From the NCBI GenBank assembly GCA_963457665.1, contig OY735209.1, positions 62,986,616 through 63,050,615 on the forward strand: a stretch of DNA of 64,000 nt. Direction: 5' to 3'. Source of the stretch: Thysanoteuthis rhombus. Lineage: Eukaryota; Mollusca; Cephalopoda; Oegopsida; Thysanoteuthidae. Positions within the stretch are counted from its first letter, which is position 1, and each line of letters begins with the position of its first letter. The notes under the pieces were generated by a model. The model did not search any database. It was given only the letters and a program-made list of their open reading frames with translations, and was not told where the DNA came from. The translations under genes were made by a program, and so were the position numbers. Below are positions 2,790 through 54,118 of this stretch, piece by piece.

Positions 2790-4970
2790 TATCTTCCTGG
2801 AAACTTTCCTCAGCCGAAATAAGAATTTTAGAAAGAGGATTGAAATTCACAAACAAAAACAAAAACGAAAAGCCAATGAAGAAATTAAACAAGACCTCCT
2901 AGAATTTACAAGAAAAATAAGACTGGCAGAATTTTTTTTTTTACGATAAAGACAAAGAAGACGACACATTGGTGAAGAACCAAAGCCTCTTCACCCCACC
3001 TACAGACAGAAACATCTCTTTAGACCATTTCGCTAAAAATGTAGAATCTCTTCCACTTGATACCATAGCAACATCACACATCAGCGTAAACGATAGGAAG
3101 ACTATTTCAACTTTATCTGCAGATGACTCAGCTATAATAGAAAACAAAACAAAAAGCAGATAAAGGAGGCGCAGTCATTATAGTGGACAAAGACCAATAC
3201 AAGTCAATCTCGGAAAAGTCTCTTAGATACCAACTACAACCAGCAATTTGACATCGATCATGGCAAAAGAAATCAGAATCTGTATAAAAGCCATAAGAAG
3301 AACGCAAGAAAAGTCTAAGAAACAAAGATTATAAATACGTTAAAAAAAATTAAAGTAAAAGAAAACCAATTTTATGGCCTTCCAAAAGTACTCAAGAGCA
3401 AAGCAATCACAGAAGCCTGTGAAAAAATATCGATACAAGATGTAAGTATACCGAATGTCAAAGATCTGAAACTACGTCCAATAATGGCAGGACGATGATA
3501 TTCAACCAGCAGACTGAGCAATCTACTGGACAGCATACTACTCCCATTAAATAATCGCCTCCAAATCTCTCTAAAAGACACGAAGAAACTTCCCCAAACG
3601 ACTAAAAACAGTAACTTCTTAGCTTCCTTTGATATTGAGTCCCTAGGCTCGAACATCAGCCACGCACTAGGACTAGGGGCATTGGAATTCTGGCTGAATA
3701 AGTACCCAAATGAAATGCTGAACAGATTTCATAAAAATTTCGTATTTGAAACCATGCGATTCATTCTAGAAAACAACACTTTCCAATTCAATGATAACTT
3801 TTTCAAACAAATTAGGGGAACAGCAATGGGGACCAAAATCGCACGCACGTATGCAACATTAAGAATTTGTCAACGACAAGAACGATTGTATGCCAGAATA
3901 TACGAAAGATTTAGAACTGAATTTCCAGAGGTTTTCAAAAAATCGTGGACTCGCCTTTTAGACGATTGTTTCTTAGCATGGAACAAATCGAAAGGAGAAC
4001 TTCAACATTTGTATCACGTATCGAATATTCCACATGAACACATTGATTTCACAATGAAATTCAAAAAACTCAAAATTTCACTTTCGGAGTGTAAAATCAT
4101 AAATAAACGGAAGAAAAAATTCTATCCAATATAAGTTACAAGCCCGCTGACAGTAGACCTTATTTGCTATTTTTCTGCATGTCACCCTAAACGCACAAAG
4201 GACCGTATACCATCTTCCCAAGCCAGGCGCTTGAAAACAATAATACCCGAATAGAGTACTCTTAATCTTAGACACTAGGAACTAAAAAAATACCTACTTA
4301 AACAGAACTATCCCCTGTCCCTGATTAATGCTGGAATCGAAGAACCCTTAAAGTAGACAGGCAACTATATCTAGCAGTAAACATTAAATAAAACAAGCAC
4401 CATTCCATTCATCAACACCCACAACCCTTTAAACCGTAAATAGAAAAAAAAGACATCCTAAAAAATACTCCTGCATGAACAACATCGTTATAAGTTCCTC
4501 AATAATAGAAAGTAACGCCAACCTCCAAATTAAAAAAAAGCTTCCGACAATAGTCATGTACTCTGAGAAAATAGAAGCAGAGAAAAGATAATAGAATGAA
4601 ATTGACCAAATTGTGGTTTATGCATAGATTTATATGAAAGGAAAGGAATATACTTTTAAATGTAGTAAAACCTTTAGCATTACATCCCATGTAACGTTAA
4701 AAATATCATCTTTGTCATTGTTTGTCGAGGTTGCAACAAGGAATACACAGGGTAATCCTTCCACTTTACAAATAGGATAACTGTGCACAGGTAACAAATA
4801 AGAGATCCCTCGACTGGGATGCCCAGAGTCAGTTCTCACATTTATGAATATTCTCCATGAGAACCAAAATTTTCAGTTTTTCTTTTCTACAAAATGAACA
4901 CTGACAATGTTGTACTATGAAGGAGAATGAATTCAGTCAATACTTCAAAACCTGCATTAGATTCCAACAA
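2790..4970 (+). pseudogene. Penelope-like element: reverse transcriptase plus partial GIY-YIG, frameshifted
   Basis: Conceptual translation across frames gives the order expected for a Penelope-like element (PLE). An N-terminal region includes LLEFTRKIRLAEFF (~2895) and FTPPTDRNISLDHF (~2990). ADKGGAVIIVDKDQY (~3160) follows after a frameshift. Then come QFYGLPKVLKSKA (~3370), LKLRPIMAG and TSRLSNLLDS (~3460-3530), and ASFDIESL (~3625). The longest open piece, 3682-4134, carries FKQIRGTAMGTKIA and RLLDDCF, the RT catalytic box (usual form ..DD.F). After a stop come ARRLKTII-like, LRHWELKKYLL-like and SLINAGIE segments (4170-4340). NIIFVIVCRGCNKEYTG (~4695-4755) is the start of the GIY-YIG nuclease, and FYKMNTDNVVLRR (~4885) lies near the C terminus. 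Many stops and frameshifts make it inactive. Flanking inverted arms at 2464-2760 and 4828-5098 support an element boundary. Confidence 0.85.
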
Positions 4971-15232: not shown

Positions 15233-17288
15233 GCTTCTTTTTTTTGGTTACGATATTGTCACCAACAACATATTTATTAGATTCAAGATGTTTAAAATTA
15301 AGTAAATTCAAAATTCAGTACCACCTTGTCGAGGAATGAAGTTCACAACACCCCCAAACACCAGCCCCTAGAAGCAACCTTAAATGCTGTTGTGGATGGA
15401 TAAAACCTGGTGCCGAGGCAATACCATTAAATGGCTGGACATTTCGAAGACTCAACAAAAAGAAAAATGATCAAACTACCAATATTGAAACTAGCTTCAA
15501 ACCTAATATAGCCATTCTAAAAATGGTGGAGTCTCCTGATTTGGTTAACCACTATCACCGTTTGCAACGACATTGAGGAAAACCCATCCTGGAGTGTTTT
15601 TTCGCAGAAAGCTTTTAAGAAAGCAGGATAGTTATCTTTGCTTTTATTACAACTGTTCTATCAAATTTCAGCACAATTTACTCTGCACTATCTTTCCTAC
15701 GATCGCTTTCTGAGAGGCATTATCTTGAATACTGCCCTGTCACTTTTGACCCGCCACTATATGTAAAAGCTACAGAGATAGTTGAGTCTTCATCTAATCT
15801 CTGTAAGGTATTTGCAAGATTTGGTGCTTTTCAAATGATAATGTCGTATACAGGAACCATTGGATATGTCATGTCAGGGAGTGGGTTTGAGAAATTATGG
15901 GAAACTGTGTATGCACCGAATTCAGTAGTCCTGACTGGGCAAGCCTGTGCACAAGGATTGTGAACATATATTCTATCTTTTGCTGCCATCGTATCAGATG
16001 CCTGGAGGGTATAGGTGTACTAGAACTCCACCCCCACCCCCATGAATCCCTCTTGAATGGAAAGTGTCAAAGCAATTCTCAAATTTGATTGAAGACCCTT
16101 TACAGAAAGTTTCTAATGAAAGCAATAAAGACAGGAAAACGGTGGCTGGATTATATTAAGTTTATATGTATTATCAAATTGTTTATTTATGCAGATGCAT
16201 TTACTGCTACGAGAAGTTCTCATTCTAATGTTGAATTGGCAGGAGATAGATAATCATATCAAATAAAATACCCTTGGGTTAAACTGTCAGAATGAGCACA
16301 TTGTTTCCTTACGTACAACGAACAAATCAAGAATACATGTATTTATTTTGGATTCATACCGGAATCATTGCCCGAAAAAAGCCTGTTTCAAGATAGCACT
16401 CTCGCCGAGTTTGCCTCATATTCCAGCAGTGGTTAGGAAGAGACTTCAGCCACTCGGACAGGACTGGATTTGCAATGTCAGAATATTGGTGCCCGTTCAA
16501 ATCGACCAAGCAGTTTATCCTGACAGTGTTTTGAATTTGATTGCTTGTGGTTGCAAAACAGATAGTCTGAAATCTTTATGAAAAACTGGTTTACATTGAT
16601 TCCCGATGTCTAGTCCTTGTAATGGTATGGAGTGTCAAAATATTTGCCCAATTGTTACGGATAAAGACGATGAGAATTAATGGCTTTTCTCGAGGTTTTT
16701 TCATCGGGATATTTCTCGAATCCTAATCTAATGCATTTTATAAAATTGCTAATCATCATGTAATCTATTCTGATTGGAATTCTAAAAAATATGCTCACTC
16801 CTGGTGTTCAGTTTTGGAGCTGTTTTCCGTTCTGGAAGCTAACCACAGATATGACCCCAATATAATTGGTTAAAATCGATTTCCCGACCATTGAATCATA
16901 GGAATTTACTCTGAAATCGACTTTCTGGTTAAAAAGTCATGGCTTTCTCCGCTATCTTGCCCAAACACGTCAGTCATGTTGAATTTGTGATTGTATCCTC
17001 AAGAGATATCACATTAACGTAGGTTATGTCAACTTTTCAACCTCCAAGACATAGAAATAGACTCAGAAACCATTGTCATATCAGGTCTAGTTGTTATTTT
17101 ATGACTTTATGAATATACGACATATTGGATTTCTTGGGAAGCTCCACTGGGATTCAAGGGAAAATTTAGTATAGTGTTTCTGGTGTCATGCTGCAACTAT
17201 CCTATAAAATATCAGCTTGTTAGAATTGATTTTAATGTTGGACTTTATGCTACTTGATTTATGAGTGAATTGTATGGACCCCACCCTC

Positions 17289-20044: not shown

Positions 20045-20386
20045 TTGCATGAGAGAATCATGCTCAATCTCATATGGAGAGATCACAAGACAGTACAATA
20101 TGTCAGGAAGAAAACGGGAGTCCGAGGCATAGAATCTATTAGAAAACTCAAATGGCGATGGGCTGGTCATGTTGCAAGAATGACAGACAACCGACATCAC
20201 GACTCACAACATAGATCCCCAGATATCACATGCGACACCGAGGCCGACAAAATACAAGATGGAGAGATGAACTAGACAAATTCATAAAAAACTGGCTCCA
20301 CGACGCCCATGATAGAAAAGATAGGTAGATCCTGGGGAAGTATATGTCCAACGATGAACGTTAAAAGACTGATGATGATGACGACA
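20045..20386 (+). mobile_element. RTE-type LINE, short 3' end
   Basis: Encodes HERIMLNLIWRDHKTVQY and WAGHVARMTDNR, then a frameshifted RDEL..KNW region, and ends '..gttaaaagactgatgatgatga' at 20361-20386. 5' truncated. Confidence 0.9.
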
Positions 20387-36385: not shown

Positions 36386-36441
36386 TTTTGCCTGATGAGG
36401 CCCGAAGAGGGCAGAAACATGAGCTAGTTTGTGTAGCGAAT
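36386..36441 (+). ncRNA. Candidate hammerhead ribozyme (family A, copy 1)
   Basis: Core CTGATGA at 36392-36398 and GAAA at 36414-36417. Stem II is GCCC/GGGC (36400-36403 with 36409-36412), loop GAAGA, with a non-canonical G-A closing pair. Stem III is ACATG (36417-36421) with TGTGT (36430-36434), including two G-U pairs, loop 8 nt. A36435 is the H17 position. Stem I is TTTGC (36387-36391) with GCGAA (36436-36440), one G-U pair. Predicted cleavage is after 36435. The flipped closing pair of stem II may weaken it. A (TA)n array starts 13 nt downstream. Confidence 0.55.
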
Positions 36442-37749: not shown

Positions 37750-37839
37750 CTCACACTCTCTTTCATATCTCTCTATCCGTCTATCTTTGTTCTTATCAAT
37801 TTATCTATCTTAACATGTTTCTATTTATCTATCATTGTT

Positions 37840-37884
<45 letters not shown>

Positions 37885-38112
37885 GTTTCTATTTATCTGT
37901 CTATCTATCTATCGTAGTCTGTTTTTATCTCAATCTATCTATCTTAGTCTATATGTATCAATCCATCTATCTGAATATTTACCTATCTCTTTGTCTTCCT
38001 ATTGATCAGTGTTGGTATCTATCTAGTTATTTATTCATCTATGTACTTTTCTCCATTTTAGTCTGTTTGTATTTATCTATCTATTTTCTACCAATTCATC
38101 TTAGTTTCTTTG

Positions 38113-38146
<34 letters not shown>

Positions 38147-38328
38147 AGTTTGTTCGTGTCCACCGATCCATCAATTTATATATGCGTATATCCAAGTTAG
38201 TATGTTTGTATGTTTATCTATATATATTGGACCGTTCGTATCCAACTATCTACATGGTTGTATCTGTAAATATCTATTTATGTATTATCATTTGTTTATC
38301 CCGATTTGAATCTATTTGTGTCTTAAAC
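37750..38328. repeat. Compound (TCTA)n tetranucleotide field, left part
   Basis: Imperfect TCTA/TATC repeats with pure runs at 37839-37883 and 38116-38147, diverging toward 38328. Open frames reading YLSIYLS are products of the repeat and not genes. Confidence 0.95.
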
Positions 38329-39293
38329 AGAGTAGATCCCCGAAAGACAGGAATACGGCACATACAGACTTTTCACAAAATCATCACCCACCGGATCACT
38401 AAAACACTTGGGGAAAACCGACCACGGGAACAAGCTAGATTTAGAAGTTACTCGACCATGGACTATCTCCAGTCAATAAATCAGCTGACAGAGAAACCAG
38501 CAGAATACAAAATGCCACTCGCTATAACGTTTATAGACTTTCTATTACAAGGGTTCCGTCTCTGTGGAAATTCCCATGGTCATGAAGGCTATCACTCTAC
38601 AAGGTATAGATCCTGTATACGCCATAATACTGAAGCATATATACTGTCACAGCAACTCCTTTATCAGGCTACATGAAGACTCTGCAGAACCGGAGAAAGT
38701 AGACCACTGCATCTACCTAAGACAACGAATTTCTATGAAACCCACATTTAAGAACAAGAAATCAAGTGAAAACCACTCTTGGATGGCAAGCCTTCAGCAG
38801 AGCAAGCTCAACTTTCAAAAACAAGAAGATCCCATTAACCCTAAAAAGAGTATACAACCAATGCAGTCTCTCGATCGTCACTTACGGAGCTGAAACATGG
38901 AGCCTAACCAAGAGACAGACCTGTAAACTCAGAACCATGTTACGTGCACACAAAAGTATCATGGTCGATCTCACATGGAGATATCACAAGATAGCCCAGT
39001 GTATAAGGAAGAAAACAGGAGTCAGGTACATCATAGAATCTATTTAAAAAACTTAAATGGCAATTGGCAGGCCATGGTGCAAAAATGACAGACAACCAAT
39101 GGATATCACGACTCACAAAATGGATCCCCAGAAATCACATGCGAAACCGAGGCCGACAGAATACAAGATGGAGAGATGAACGAGACAAATTTAGAAAATA
39201 CTGGCTCTGCCACGTCTACGAGAGAGAGATATGGCGAATCCTTAGGAAGGTCTGTGTCCAACGACAGAGGATAAAAGACTGATGATGATAATG
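38329..39293 (+). mobile_element. RTE-type LINE inserted in the tetranucleotide field
   Basis: Starts with RKTGIRHIQTFHKIITHRIT and FRSYSTMDYLQSINQL (38340-38480). It continues with YKMPLAITFIDF, then a jump to KVDHCIYLRQRISM (~38697), SIVTYGAETWSLTKRQT (~38870-38920), WRYHKIAQCIRKK, AGHGAKMTDNQWISRLT and the terminal 'taaaagactgatgatgataatga' at 39271-39293. The FADD region is deleted. Flanking sequence on both sides is (TCTA)n-like, so it inserted into the microsatellite. Confidence 0.92.
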
Positions 39294-39717
39294 ATTTATT
39301 AATCTATCTAAATCTTCTGTATATATCTAAATCTTCTGTATATATCTCTCTATTTATCTTAGTCTATTCGATTCTATATATCCATCTATTAAAGTCTTTG
39401 TACATCTATCTATGTTTGTAATCGATCTGCTTATCTATCTTGACGTATCTGTCTATCTATTTATCTATTTATATATCTATCTCTATATCTTTGTTTATCA
39501 ATATACCTGTTATTATGTTTGTATCTATCTATCTATCAATCCCTGTATACATGTATATATATATATATTTGACTATATTATTCTTTTTATATCAATATAT
39601 CAATCTATTTGTTTATCAATCCATCTTTTTATTTTAATCTATTTGTATCTATCGATCTGTACATCTATCTTACTTTGTTTTTGTCTATGTATGTATGTAT
39701 GTATGTATGTATGTATG

Positions 39718-39748
<31 letters not shown>

Positions 39749-39875
39749 GTAACTATCTATCTATCTATCTATCTATTGATCTATCTATCTATCTATCCAT
39801 CTATGTGTCTAACTGTCTAAATATCTATCCAAGTTTGTTTCCATCGATCTCACTATCAATCAATCATGGAGTATT

Positions 39876-39914
<39 letters not shown>

Positions 39915-40236
39915 CTATGTACATATGAATATGTATGTATATATCTGACTATCTATCTTCCTTACTCTGTATCGCTATATGTATACATCTATCTAGGTAT
40001 CTCTCTATATTTCAATTATGTATGTATGTATCTATGGATATATATCAGCTTGTATCAATCCATCTATTTATTTTTTGTTTGTATCTATCTAAGACTGTTC
40101 GTCATCTAGTCACATATTCATTTATATATCGATCTATATATTTATCTTTGTCTGTATCCTTCCATCTATTTCTTTATTTGTCTATCTTTGTATCTGTCGA
40201 TATTTGTATCTATCTATTTATCTGTCTATTAATCTA

Positions 40237-40277
<41 letters not shown>

Positions 40278-40582
40278 CTATCTATCCATCAATCTATCTA
40301 TCTGTCAATCAATACAACTATCTAATTTAGTATCTATCTCTATATATTCTTATCTATTTATTCTTTTTCAACCATTTATCAATCTACGTCTGTTTGTATT
40401 TATGTATGTATGTATGTATGTATGTATGTATGTATGTATGTATGTATGTATGTACGTATCTATCTATTTATCTCTTCGTCTATCTTTTTATCTTTGTTTT
40501 TTCAATTTCTATCCATCTATCTATCTATTTATCAATCTTTCCACCTATCCATACATCAATCTATCTATGTATTTTTTTGTGT

Positions 40583-40645
<63 letters not shown>

Positions 40646-40731
40646 TGTATCCATCTATCCGTCTCTCTATCTATCTCTCAAACTATCTTAATCTTTGTAT
40701 GTATGTATGTATGTATTTATCTATCAATCTA

Positions 40732-40826
<95 letters not shown>

Positions 40827-41060
40827 CCGTCCATGTATCTATCTATCCATCTATCTATGTATATATCGATTCATCTTACACTGTACTTATCTCTCTTTTT
40901 ATTTAAGTCTCTTCGTACCTATCTATTAATCCATCTATCTTAGTCTGTTTGTAATTCTCTATCTATTAATCTACATATCAATCTCAGTCCTTTTGAATAA
41001 ATCCATTTATTTATCTATCTATCTATCTATCTATATATCTAGACATATTTGTCTTGTATT
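39294..41060. repeat. Compound tetranucleotide field, right part: (TCTA)n, (TATG)n, (TC)n, (TA)n
   Basis: Pure sub-arrays: (TATG)n at 39688-39747, 40400-40453 and 40697-40718; (TCTA)n at 39753-39800, 40259-40286 and 41011-41032; (TC)n at 40234-40258 and 40736-40777; (TA)n at 40587-40642 and 40778-40822. All frames through it, up to 241 codons, are artefacts. Confidence 0.95.
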
Positions 41061-41904: not shown

Positions 41905-42085
41905 CTCGATTCAGCACGCACACACATATTTATTATTGTGTCATCCACAGGCAGCTGTTTCGATGTATTACATCTCTTCAGTGTGGCTATAGACTTTTCA
42001 TACCGTCCAGTACTGCGAGGCAGAATTGAAACCCTCAAATCGGACCCGGAGGCCGATATCCTACCTCTGGACTACGGGTGGTCAG
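41905..42085 (-). mobile_element. tRNA-headed SINE carrying a hammerhead-like core (copy 1)
   Basis: On the minus strand the head (42078 down to ~42012) shows 'tagtccagaggtagg' (A box), an anticodon arm with stem ATCGG/CCGAT, and 'gagggtttcaattctgcctc' (T-arm/B box). A ~30 nt body ('gtactggacggtatg') leads into the hammerhead-like motif at 41986-41945. The tail is AT-rich, then (TG)n and (TA)n. A second copy lies at 53950-54118 on the other strand, proving a mobile unit. Confidence 0.7.
41945..41986 (-). ncRNA. Candidate hammerhead ribozyme inside SINE (family B, copy 1)
   Basis: Minus strand, 5' to 3': stem I CCACA (41986-41982) pairs with TGTGG (41949-41945). Core CTGAAGA spans 41981-41975. 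Stem II GATGT/ACATC is perfect, with a 3 nt AAT loop (41974-41962), and includes the preferred G-C closing pair. GAAA spans 41961-41958. A palindromic stem III, ACAGCTGC (41958-41951), has one changed base at position 16.1. H17 is C (41950). All core positions other than 16.1 fit. The near-absent stem III loop suggests a minimal, dimer-active type I form, as described for retroelement hammerheads. Confidence 0.6.
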
Positions 42086-42089
42086 TTAG

Positions 42090-43863
42090 ACTGAAATTAA
42101 GCGATATATTCATTTTCACACAGAAACATCTCATCCACCAGAGTACTCAATTCCTATGGAAGAGCATTGCATATATATAAGAGGATGCATCAATAAGCAT
42201 TAGCAAACAGTATGTTTATCTGAAATATATCTATCATATTTTTACCCCTTCTGCGACAATCACCATTGCACTAAGCTGGACCATGTTTGATTCGCAAACC
42301 TTTTCTTCTCATGTTTTCGTTTAATGGTCGTTATGGAGCTAGAGTTATAGAAATATACTTATTTTTCATTGGATTTCTCCAGAACCGCGGATTTGAACAT
42401 CTTTTAAGTCGACGCTGCTCTGCGTGGTGACAAATCTATCTTCGTGATATCTTTACTGAGTTCAGCTAGGTTATTTCTAGATGAGTCCTTACATCTCAAT
42501 GTGACACTTCTCTGTCGGTTGGTAGGGCAGTCGGTGCTAATCTACAGAGACTGATGTCAACGAAAGAACAACATATCCGATCAATTGTTTGACTAACTGA
42601 TATGAAGTCATTACAGAATGTACAAGGTCTGCAGTTTTGTATTTTAAAAAGCCCCAAATCGACCAAAAATATCAAAAATCGCAACTTGAGATTTTCATTG
42701 AAAAAAAAATCGTTGAATATTATTTCCATGTTGCACTATTTCACAAGTATGACATTCAATTGACTCGAAGAAATACTACTTAGTCTTCCCGCTTCCTGGT
42801 ACTGCTACCACGGATGGTGGACGTATCGTTGAACTTATGGTTCTTGTTTCTACTAGAATTGAGACTCTCAATGAAGTTGTGACATTAGCTAGCTCTACCA
42901 CGAACCAGCTCTACCCAAATACATATTTATGAAGCTTAGTCGAGACTACCCCAGGGCATCATCAGTAGAGTACCCCTCGATGAACAAGTCTACTATCCTC
43001 AAGATAGACTCACTAACAACTGCTCCACTCAAGTGGACGTTGTGTTTGCAATTGAAATTATTTAGTAGGTTTTTGTGAGTCTAACTCAAAGCCATAACAG
43101 TAAGAGACATTGTTAGGCACGACAAGCTCGCATACTATTACTAGACTCTAGACAGAGAGGTAACAAGCACTCACAGTGACGTCACTATCTCCATTCTTGG
43201 CTATTTTCCAATGAGGGAGGAAAGATAAATTCTTTCCTCTCCCAAGGGCATTACAAGTGTATACAAACTGTCTGAGTTTGAACATTAGGCTCTGGGCCAC
43301 CAGCACTGCCACATTTGATCAGTTAGTAAACATTTATTATGTCAGGAATTGGTATCAAAGGATTGAAGCCAAGCAGTGCCAACGGAAAGTGACACACTTG
43401 ACAGGAAGTTCGGGATTCAAAATTTCATCCGCACAAATTCGATAATGAATCATTTGGAACCGAGCCTAAAAATCACTCGTGTTGAGCAAGCCATGTATAG
43501 AGATATAGGAGGATGAATGAAGATCGGTCGATTGAACAGATTATGTTGAATATTAGCAGAACAATACAGAATTATAGATATAAACATATATATAGATAAG
43601 TTAGGATAGTCAGATAGATAGATACTAATAGACTGGAGTAAATATAAATTTCCACTGGAAAACATCTGGAATAAAACACATATAGAAACATCTGATGAAC
43701 ATTGAAAAACCTTTCAAAATAATAAAATAAGATAAATAAAATTCAGAGAGTATCCAGTCGAGAACTGATGCTTATTTTTAAGTTGACAAACCGGTATGGC
43801 CAGGAGCGAGCGCTGGAATACAAAAACACATGAACATATAAAAAGGCATAGAACCCTCAGCTA

Positions 43864-49751: not shown

Positions 49752-49807
49752 ATTCGCCTGATGAGACCCAGAGAGGGCAGAAACATAAACACGTCTATGT
49801 AGCGAAT
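49752..49807 (+). ncRNA. Candidate hammerhead ribozyme (family A, copy 2; best copy)
   Basis: Stem I ATTCGC (49752-49757) pairs perfectly with GCGAAT (49802-49807). Core CTGATGA is at 49758-49764 and GAAA at 49780-49783. Stem II is CCC/GGG (49767-49769 with 49775-49777) plus two weak closing positions (G-A, A-C), loop AGAGA. Stem III ACATA (49783-49787) pairs perfectly with TATGT (49796-49800), loop 8 nt. A49801 is at the H17 cleavage position. All catalytic core nucleotides are present. Loop sizes and spacing are the same as in copy 1. The weak base of stem II is the main doubt about activity. Confidence 0.65.
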
Positions 49808-53950: not shown

Positions 53951-54118
53951 CCCCAGTTTTGCGTAGGGGGCAAAATATCAGCCTCTGTGTCTGAAACGAA
54001 GGTTTCTATCTTACCTCGTGGTACTGGATAGAATAATGGATAGTTTATAGCCACACTGAACGGTTGTGATACTGCGAAACAGCTGTCCCTTGATGTCTCA
54101 ATTATTTAAATATTATTA
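53950..54118 (+). mobile_element. tRNA-headed SINE carrying a hammerhead-like core (copy 2)
   Basis: Aligns along its length with the minus-strand SINE at 42085-41905. The head has a decayed B box ('gaaggtttctatctt'), then 'gtggtactggatag', 'atagccacactgaa', 'gcgaaacagctgtc' and 'gatg'. More diverged than copy 1. The 3' end leads into (TATT)n, (TCTA)n and (TC)n. Confidence 0.65.
54051..54091 (+). ncRNA. Hammerhead-like motif inside SINE (family B, copy 2; mutated)
   Basis: CCACA (54051-54055), CTGAACG (54056-54062; core would be CTGAAGA), a stem II with one U-U mismatch, GAAA (54076-54079), and a perfect palindromic stem III ACAGCTGT (54079-54086) with C at H17 (54087). The 3' strand of stem I has mutated (CCTTG against TGTGG). 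It keeps the position-16.1 U that copy 1 has lost. The two copies damage different parts of the same fold. Confidence 0.5.

Follow-up and report, generated by a model that had tools for sequence, protein, structure and literature searches.

A repeat on the minus strand of the 64,000-nt stretch of Thysanoteuthis rhombus DNA analysed here (the window) is quite probably a 5′-truncated copy of a non-autonomous, animal-type non-LTR retrozyme that carries A and B boxes, in other words a hybrid of retrozyme and SINE with a unit of about 306 bp. The hammerhead motif is real and conserved and lies in a high-copy mobile unit, best filed as a variant of the animal non-LTR retrozymes with tRNA-like boxes. 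An initial annotation of this DNA had placed the unit at 41905..42085 and gave no strand; that interval is part of the copy only, which aligns over 42173-41928, and both the hammerhead and the boxes belong to the minus strand. The features on which the argument draws are as follows.

41928..42173, minus strand: whole window copy of the repeat (L001), from BLASTN of the 306-nt unit consensus, with the letters checked

41945..41986, minus strand: type I hammerhead layout, from the window sequence and an alignment of 39 fetched copies with the window copy; CC replaces the consensus TC

41949..41950, minus strand: predicted cleavage site between C17 (41950) and U1.1 (41949), from hammerhead numbering and the family consensus

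42023..42033, minus strand: B-box-like GGTTTCAATTC, with two mismatches to GGTTCRANNCC one base further on

42064..42074, minus strand: A-box-like TAGTCCAGAGG, with no mismatches to TRGYNNARNGG

53975..54113, plus strand: second, older and diverged copy of the repeat, about 73-75% identical, from BLASTN within the window and alignment

3682-4134, plus strand: reverse transcriptase fragment, from its appearance and its relatives in the genome

Results

The hammerhead motif and its copies

Read on the minus strand, positions 41986-41945 give CCACA CTGAAGA GATGTAATACATC GAAA CAGCTGCC TGTGG. Stem I (CCACA/TGTGG) has 5 bp, the core consists of CTGANGA and GAAA, stem II (GATGT/ACATC) is a perfect 5 bp with the loop AAT, and GAAA is followed by CAGCTG and CC. 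The order of these parts is that of a type I hammerhead, and hammerhead numbering is applied accordingly. CTGAAGA, the perfect stem II, GAAA and the 5-bp stem I are thus all present as the initial annotation had claimed; of its palindrome, CAGCTG is there, and the T it had bracketed is absent from the window copy, which has C at position 16.1 (41951) and reads ACAGCTGCC, where the family consensus has T and reads ACAGCTGTC. Since C replaces U at 16.1, the window copy is probably inactive as a ribozyme.

Chance likeness to a hammerhead is ruled out by shuffled controls and by copy number in the genome. Our own descriptor, comprising three stems and the core, matched the family consensus and nothing in 40 Markov-shuffled 64-kb sequences searched on both strands; on the real window it returned one unrelated match, at 20369 (+), and missed the window's own copy because position 16.1 is changed. 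Covariance models, which the initial annotation had put forward as a check, reported no hammerhead at any of three scopes: the Rfam gathering scan of the whole window gave no match of any family; a scan of 601 bases, at E up to 10, gave no hammerhead and no tRNA; and six near-consensus loci, again at E up to 10, gave 57 matches, none of them hammerhead or tRNA and chiefly microRNA models lying on AT repeats. ARAGORN found no tRNA in the window or in 26 loci. With Rfam and ARAGORN negative, the case for the hammerhead therefore rests on consensus, copy number and covariation. In the predicted minimum-energy fold of the motif (−11.3 kcal/mol), stems I and II form and the core CUG pairs with CAG; the hammerhead fold of the monomer, with a 2-bp stem III, is predicted at −6.2 kcal/mol, and this preference for a competing pairing counts against the hammerhead.

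The genome searched comprises 2.73 Gb in 514 contigs. With up to three mismatches allowed, a count that takes in the main and the compensated forms of stem II together, the 42-nt motif lies at 15,530 places (7,710 forward and 7,820 reverse), and the same motif reversed lies at none. A search with the 181-nt query, which returned the copies nearest to that query, yielded 3,976 first-look candidates, of which 40 were scored and gave 42 matches. The gathering of genomic copies that the initial annotation had recommended brings out an interspersed, high-copy repeat with many thousands of copies.

When the 39 fetched copies were aligned with the window copy, the consensus retained the hammerhead core (CTGANGA, GAAA, T16.1 and C17) and the stems, and the 3′ part of the repeat read CCACACTGAAGAGATGTAATACATCGAAACAGCTGTCTGTGGATGACACAATAAT, followed by (AT)n. 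A further set of 60 loci was taken in genome order by exact match to the motif; loci picked in this way are uninformative on motif conservation, which was therefore checked in 30 loci drawn with a motif-free query. In those, 53 aligned stretches span the motif, their consensus is the perfect motif, and 8 of the 53 are exact. Mean divergence in the same 53-stretch sample was 0.056 for the motif, 0.165 for the tRNA-like part and 0.049 for unit positions 30-177, the last value being lowered by the choice of query. The core is kept in both consensuses and the hammerhead lies inside the repeat unit, the two points on which the initial annotation had let its proposal stand or fall.

A second hammerhead-like family is found in the window at 49758 (+), with the parts ATTCGC / CTGATGA / GCCC-GGGC with G.A at 10.1-11.1 / GAAA / ACATA..TATGT / GCGAAT. 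Another copy of it, at 36392 (+), is weaker in stem I and passes into (AT)n; the family is seen also in L172 and L173, and has 42 matches and 538 first-look candidates genome-wide.

The repeat unit and its tandem dimers

The consensus of the unit, opened where cleavage is predicted, has a length of 306 nt, with the A-box starting at position 183, the B-box at 224 and the hammerhead at 270. The 181-nt unit of the initial annotation, headed by the tRNA-like region, was rejected, the unit consensus being about 306 bp and copies extending upstream of the A-box. The unit has no LTR and is non-coding: its GC content is 44.8%, its longest sense stop-free frame is 40 codons, and the longest antisense frame is 94 in the tripled unit. 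The window copy is 5′-truncated: it opens at unit position 80 and extends to position 18 of the following unit, its tail reaching 18 nt beyond the predicted cleavage site. On the 3′ side it is adjoined by microsatellite-like TGTGTG/(TA)n. In the older copy at 53975..54113 (+) the core is damaged (CTGAACG) and stem I is partly lost. Elsewhere in the window, 37766-41041 holds long TATC/TATA-rich tracts of up to about 1.4 kb.

Tandem dimers, a search for which had been suggested at the outset, do occur. In L048-L051 successive hammerheads are spaced about 307-308 bp apart. Dimers were present in 4 of 26 first-search loci (3-kb flanks, window included). Of 30 loci retrieved by a query that straddled the start of the unit, 21 showed an upstream unit ending at the junction, a rate which that query biases towards dimers. 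Head-to-tail partial dimers were found in 11 of the 59 unmasked loci of the 60-locus set (10 by script and L126 by eye), the masked L106 having been left out of the count. In 18 distinct tandem pairs the two cleavage motifs are separated by 275-307 bp, with no (AT)8 run intervening; these 18 leave out L097, in which an AT run does intervene, the old copy L140, which lacks the standard junction, and three rows that duplicate copies already counted. Arrays of three units were not seen in the loci examined.

Some 30-45 bp from the 3′ end of a full copy, L003/L010 (C38) and L034 (C46) hold a piece of the hammerhead region turned the opposite way, and twin priming or a second insertion might leave such pieces. 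A PDB sequence search gave no matches, and a 32-mer had no exact match in viral contigs.

Ends of the copies and the form of the template

The 3′ end of the repeat is nearly constant: of 60 loci, 57 can be followed along the consensus as far as unit positions 13-23, and in 43 of the 60 a run of (AT)5 or longer comes directly after the repeat. The 5′ ends were read in the 48 monomers of the same set, L126 having been moved to the dimers. Twelve begin at unit positions 14-21, which is the 3′-end point one unit upstream (binomial 3e-9 for that 8-nt window, uncorrected for the choice of window), and some copies of this cluster have flanks other than AT repeats (L103, L120). A second cluster, at positions 79-97, accounts for 17 of the 48. 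No monomer begins between positions 114 and 188, and none within 3 nt of the cleavage site. Three of the 26 first-search loci (L061, L064 and L062) start at unit positions 1, 1 and 3, respectively; the impression given by L061 and L064, that copies begin at the cleavage site, was not upheld in the monomers.

The first cluster lies just upstream of AATGCTCCTCT, the second just upstream of the related AATGCTCTTCC, and both precede AATGCTCYTC; a sequence- or hairpin-dependent stop could therefore make both. We considered another account, in which the 79-97 cluster would be the same point in a shorter unit without positions 19-83. The fetched loci yielded no junction of such a short unit; the sole match to one, in L080, proved to be a full unit with a point change.

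The 14-21 cluster matches the outcome expected of a single complete passage round a circular template, and the 79-97 cluster is not predicted by a circle. Given the size of the latter cluster, the AATGCTCYTC that follows both, and the lack of starts at the cleavage site, a circular RNA template for the insertions is therefore favoured rather than shown. There is an appreciable chance, well short of even, that the hammerhead is active and that the DNA is copied from a linear multimer, or that dimers arise as the reverse transcriptase jumps between linear RNAs, with no circle involved. The second cluster counts in favour of copying from linear RNA, as does the report that unprocessed RNA is the main in vitro substrate of a Penelope-like element (PMC11167929); the 12 monomers whose 5′ ends fall at the 3′-end point, one unit away, count against it, and full copies that run from there through a unit with a mid-placed putative promoter need a circle or a multimer.

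Covariation in stem II

In older copies stem II is GTTGT/ACAAC as against GATGT/ACATC, one pair having changed on both sides. Counted as exact 37-mers genome-wide, the compensated GTTGT/ACAAC form occurs 1,777 times (888 + 889), the half-changed GATGT/ACAAC form 45 times (19 + 26) and the half-changed GTTGT/ACATC form 33 times (20 + 13); the reversed control for each of the three counts gave 0. The smaller set of fetched loci has the pair as A-T 100 times, as T-A twice, and as T-T and G-A once each. The pattern shows selection to have kept stem II paired, subfamily by subfamily, an argument from sequence that bears on the stem and does not thereby demonstrate ribozyme activity. Stem I offered no variation of a kind that tests its pairing. 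We regard the genome-wide compensation counts as strong evolutionary evidence for a kept stem, of a sort usually lacking when minimal hammerheads are called from sequence alone.

On contig C29 (G000), two motifs 269 bp apart on the same strand, at 9008249-9008285 (+) and 9008518-9008554 (+), carry opposite half-changes of the stem II pair. This resembles the outcome of an exchange in which a dimer of one subfamily took up a stretch, one unit long, from the other.

We think it unlikely that the conserved part is a 3′ stem-loop recognised by a reverse transcriptase, as in many SINE and LINE tails, with the likeness to a hammerhead incidental and no self-cutting. The consensus places CTGANGA, GAAA, T16.1, C17 and a 5-bp stem I at the exact hammerhead positions, the descriptor of that arrangement was silent in all 40 shuffled windows, and tandem units without a tail between them fit units made by a ribozyme; these points argue for a hammerhead, even though the covariation, seen in stem II alone, is equally expected of a plain hairpin. 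The lack of a pairing test in stem I, the position of the motif beside the 3′ end of the copies and the absence of an Rfam hammerhead match likewise suit a simple stem-loop.

A candidate mobiliser

The reverse transcriptase fragment at 3682-4134 (+) is presumably Penelope-like. Pfam recognised no family in it; two of four proteins homologous to it match RVT_1 with E < 1e-6 (the one scoring above the cut-off, the other slightly under it), and among the matches listed 150 places in the genome are related to it, most of them with stops. The (AT) side of the target, the fixed start inside ACACAATAAT and the partial tandems of the repeat, taken by analogy, resemble what one report describes for a Penelope-like element, in which reverse transcription starts inside an AC-rich stem-loop and targets are AT-rich (PMC11167929). 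The same report describes hammerhead cutting as dispensable for Penelope-like insertion in vitro, which speaks against a necessary ribozyme role (PMC11167929).

It also seems unlikely that the unit itself descends from a Penelope-like element, as a fragment or by deletion, and owes its minimal hammerhead to that element's pseudo-LTR. Remnants that we take for Penelope-like reverse transcriptase, the window fragment and its relatives, are at hand in this genome, yet no reverse transcriptase was recognised beside the repeat and the unit's longest sense frame spans only 40 codons. Searches made with other aims brought to light no sequence common to the repeat and a Penelope-like element. The likeness on which such a derivation would draw is that Penelope-like elements carry minimal type I hammerheads, form partial tandems and prefer AT-rich targets (PMC7229834, PMC11167929).

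The tRNA-like boxes and the question of a promoter

The A- and B-box-like sequences lie 42 nt apart, the best pair having 0 + 2 mismatches, a score equalled by 15 of 2,000 shuffles; older copies read GGTTTCGATCC at the B-box. The initial annotation had seen in them a tRNA-like 5′ head. Its boxes do lie inside the unit, and they are not at the 5′ head, full copies starting up to about 165 nt upstream of the A-box. The 5′ end that a polymerase III start just upstream of the A-box would leave does not appear among the 48 monomers, and no cluster of their ends marks such a start. TTTT is absent from the unit, which weakly favours read-through by polymerase III. On these grounds a polymerase III promoter in the unit seems weakly supported, and transcription of the repeat by polymerase III may be called possible, not established.

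If transcription does start mid-unit, only tandem or circular RNA can regenerate a full copy. We entertain, as a tentative reading with the balance of probability against it, that the repeat is a retrozyme with its own internal polymerase III promoter, that is, a SINE copied from ribozyme-made circular RNA. An ordinary tRNA-derived SINE that looks like a hammerhead by chance would account for the boxes and their spacing; it is highly improbable because of the subfamily-level compensation counts in stem II, and the 15,530 copies of the motif and the full copies extending far upstream of the A-box also tell against it.

Discussion

In the cycle that we infer for this retrozyme-like repeat, transcription of a tandem copy, whether by polymerase III at the copy's own boxes or as read-through, would be followed by cleavage of the transcript by the hammerheads, presumably acting as dimers. 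A host ligase would then close the products to circles; in a 306-nt circle the C17-U1.1 junction would join ...CAGCUGUC to UGUGGAUGACAC. At an AT-rich target a reverse transcriptase, possibly that of a Penelope-like element or a LINE, would start in ACACAATAAT, the stretch directly after the ligated cleavage site. One or more rounds of the circle would leave copies of one unit, of less than one unit, or a partial dimer. The tail of the repeat is TGTGGATGACACAATAAT.

The nearest relatives by design are the animal non-LTR retrozymes, whose tandem units, of about 170-400 nt, bear type I hammerheads and whose RNA is known as circles from a coral, a mussel and the axolotl (Cervera and de la Pena 2020; PMC7229834). 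The repeat described here is like them in its type I hammerhead, its tandem dimers, its lack of LTRs and a 306-nt unit within that size range; their GC content is given as under 45%, beside 44.8% here, and some of their members, which act as dimers, share the weak stem III of the repeat (PMC7229834). Unlike them, as far as that account describes, it has a tRNA-like region with A and B boxes inside the unit. It is seen as dispersed partial dimers beside (AT)n, with no longer arrays in the loci examined. The suggestion that this design has no mollusc counterpart fails, since retrozymes with type I hammerheads had already been described in the mussel, with about 5,000 motifs and units of 350-390 bp (PMC7229834); a giant squid genome is reported to have 235 hammerhead 1 matches (PMC6962438).

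Three other groups of repeats invite comparison. Sm-alpha of schistosomes is SINE-like and has a type I hammerhead (PMC2770079, PMC8490949), and by description our repeat is like Sm-alpha and Sj-alpha in being tRNA-related, high-copy and SINE-like with such a hammerhead (PMC2770079). Unlike Sm-alpha, which is tied to tRNA-Gln (PMC2770079), it contains no tRNA that ARAGORN or Rfam sees in the window. With the hammerheads of Penelope-like elements it shares a minimal stem III, AT-rich targets, partial tandems and a start of reverse transcription in an AC-rich stretch downstream of the cleavage site (PMC11167929). Those hammerheads, however, are described in pseudo-LTRs of elements that encode a reverse transcriptase, whereas the repeat is a non-coding 306 bp; its 3′ end, 18 nt past the cleavage site, also differs from what is described for them (PMC11167929). 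The Ceph-SINEs of squids are comparable by description, as tRNA-derived cephalopod repeats (PMC7708342). In the open-licence literature, a scope outside which most subscription papers fall, we found no description of a hammerhead repeat of this family together with cephalopod, SINE, octopus or squid.

What is new in relation to the retrozymes described in these sources is that the hammerhead shares its repeat with tRNA-like promoter boxes; the hammerhead repeat as a kind is known from other animals. Published accounts of animal retrozymes recognise no promoter in them and give their way back into DNA as unknown (PMC7761336, PMC7229834). The thousands of copies in this one genome, with their ends, dimers and boxes, make two questions testable: whether circles serve as the template, and whether polymerase III is the maker of the RNA. 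If the reading with an internal promoter is true, its genomic trace would be the copies whose two ends fall at one point of a circle.
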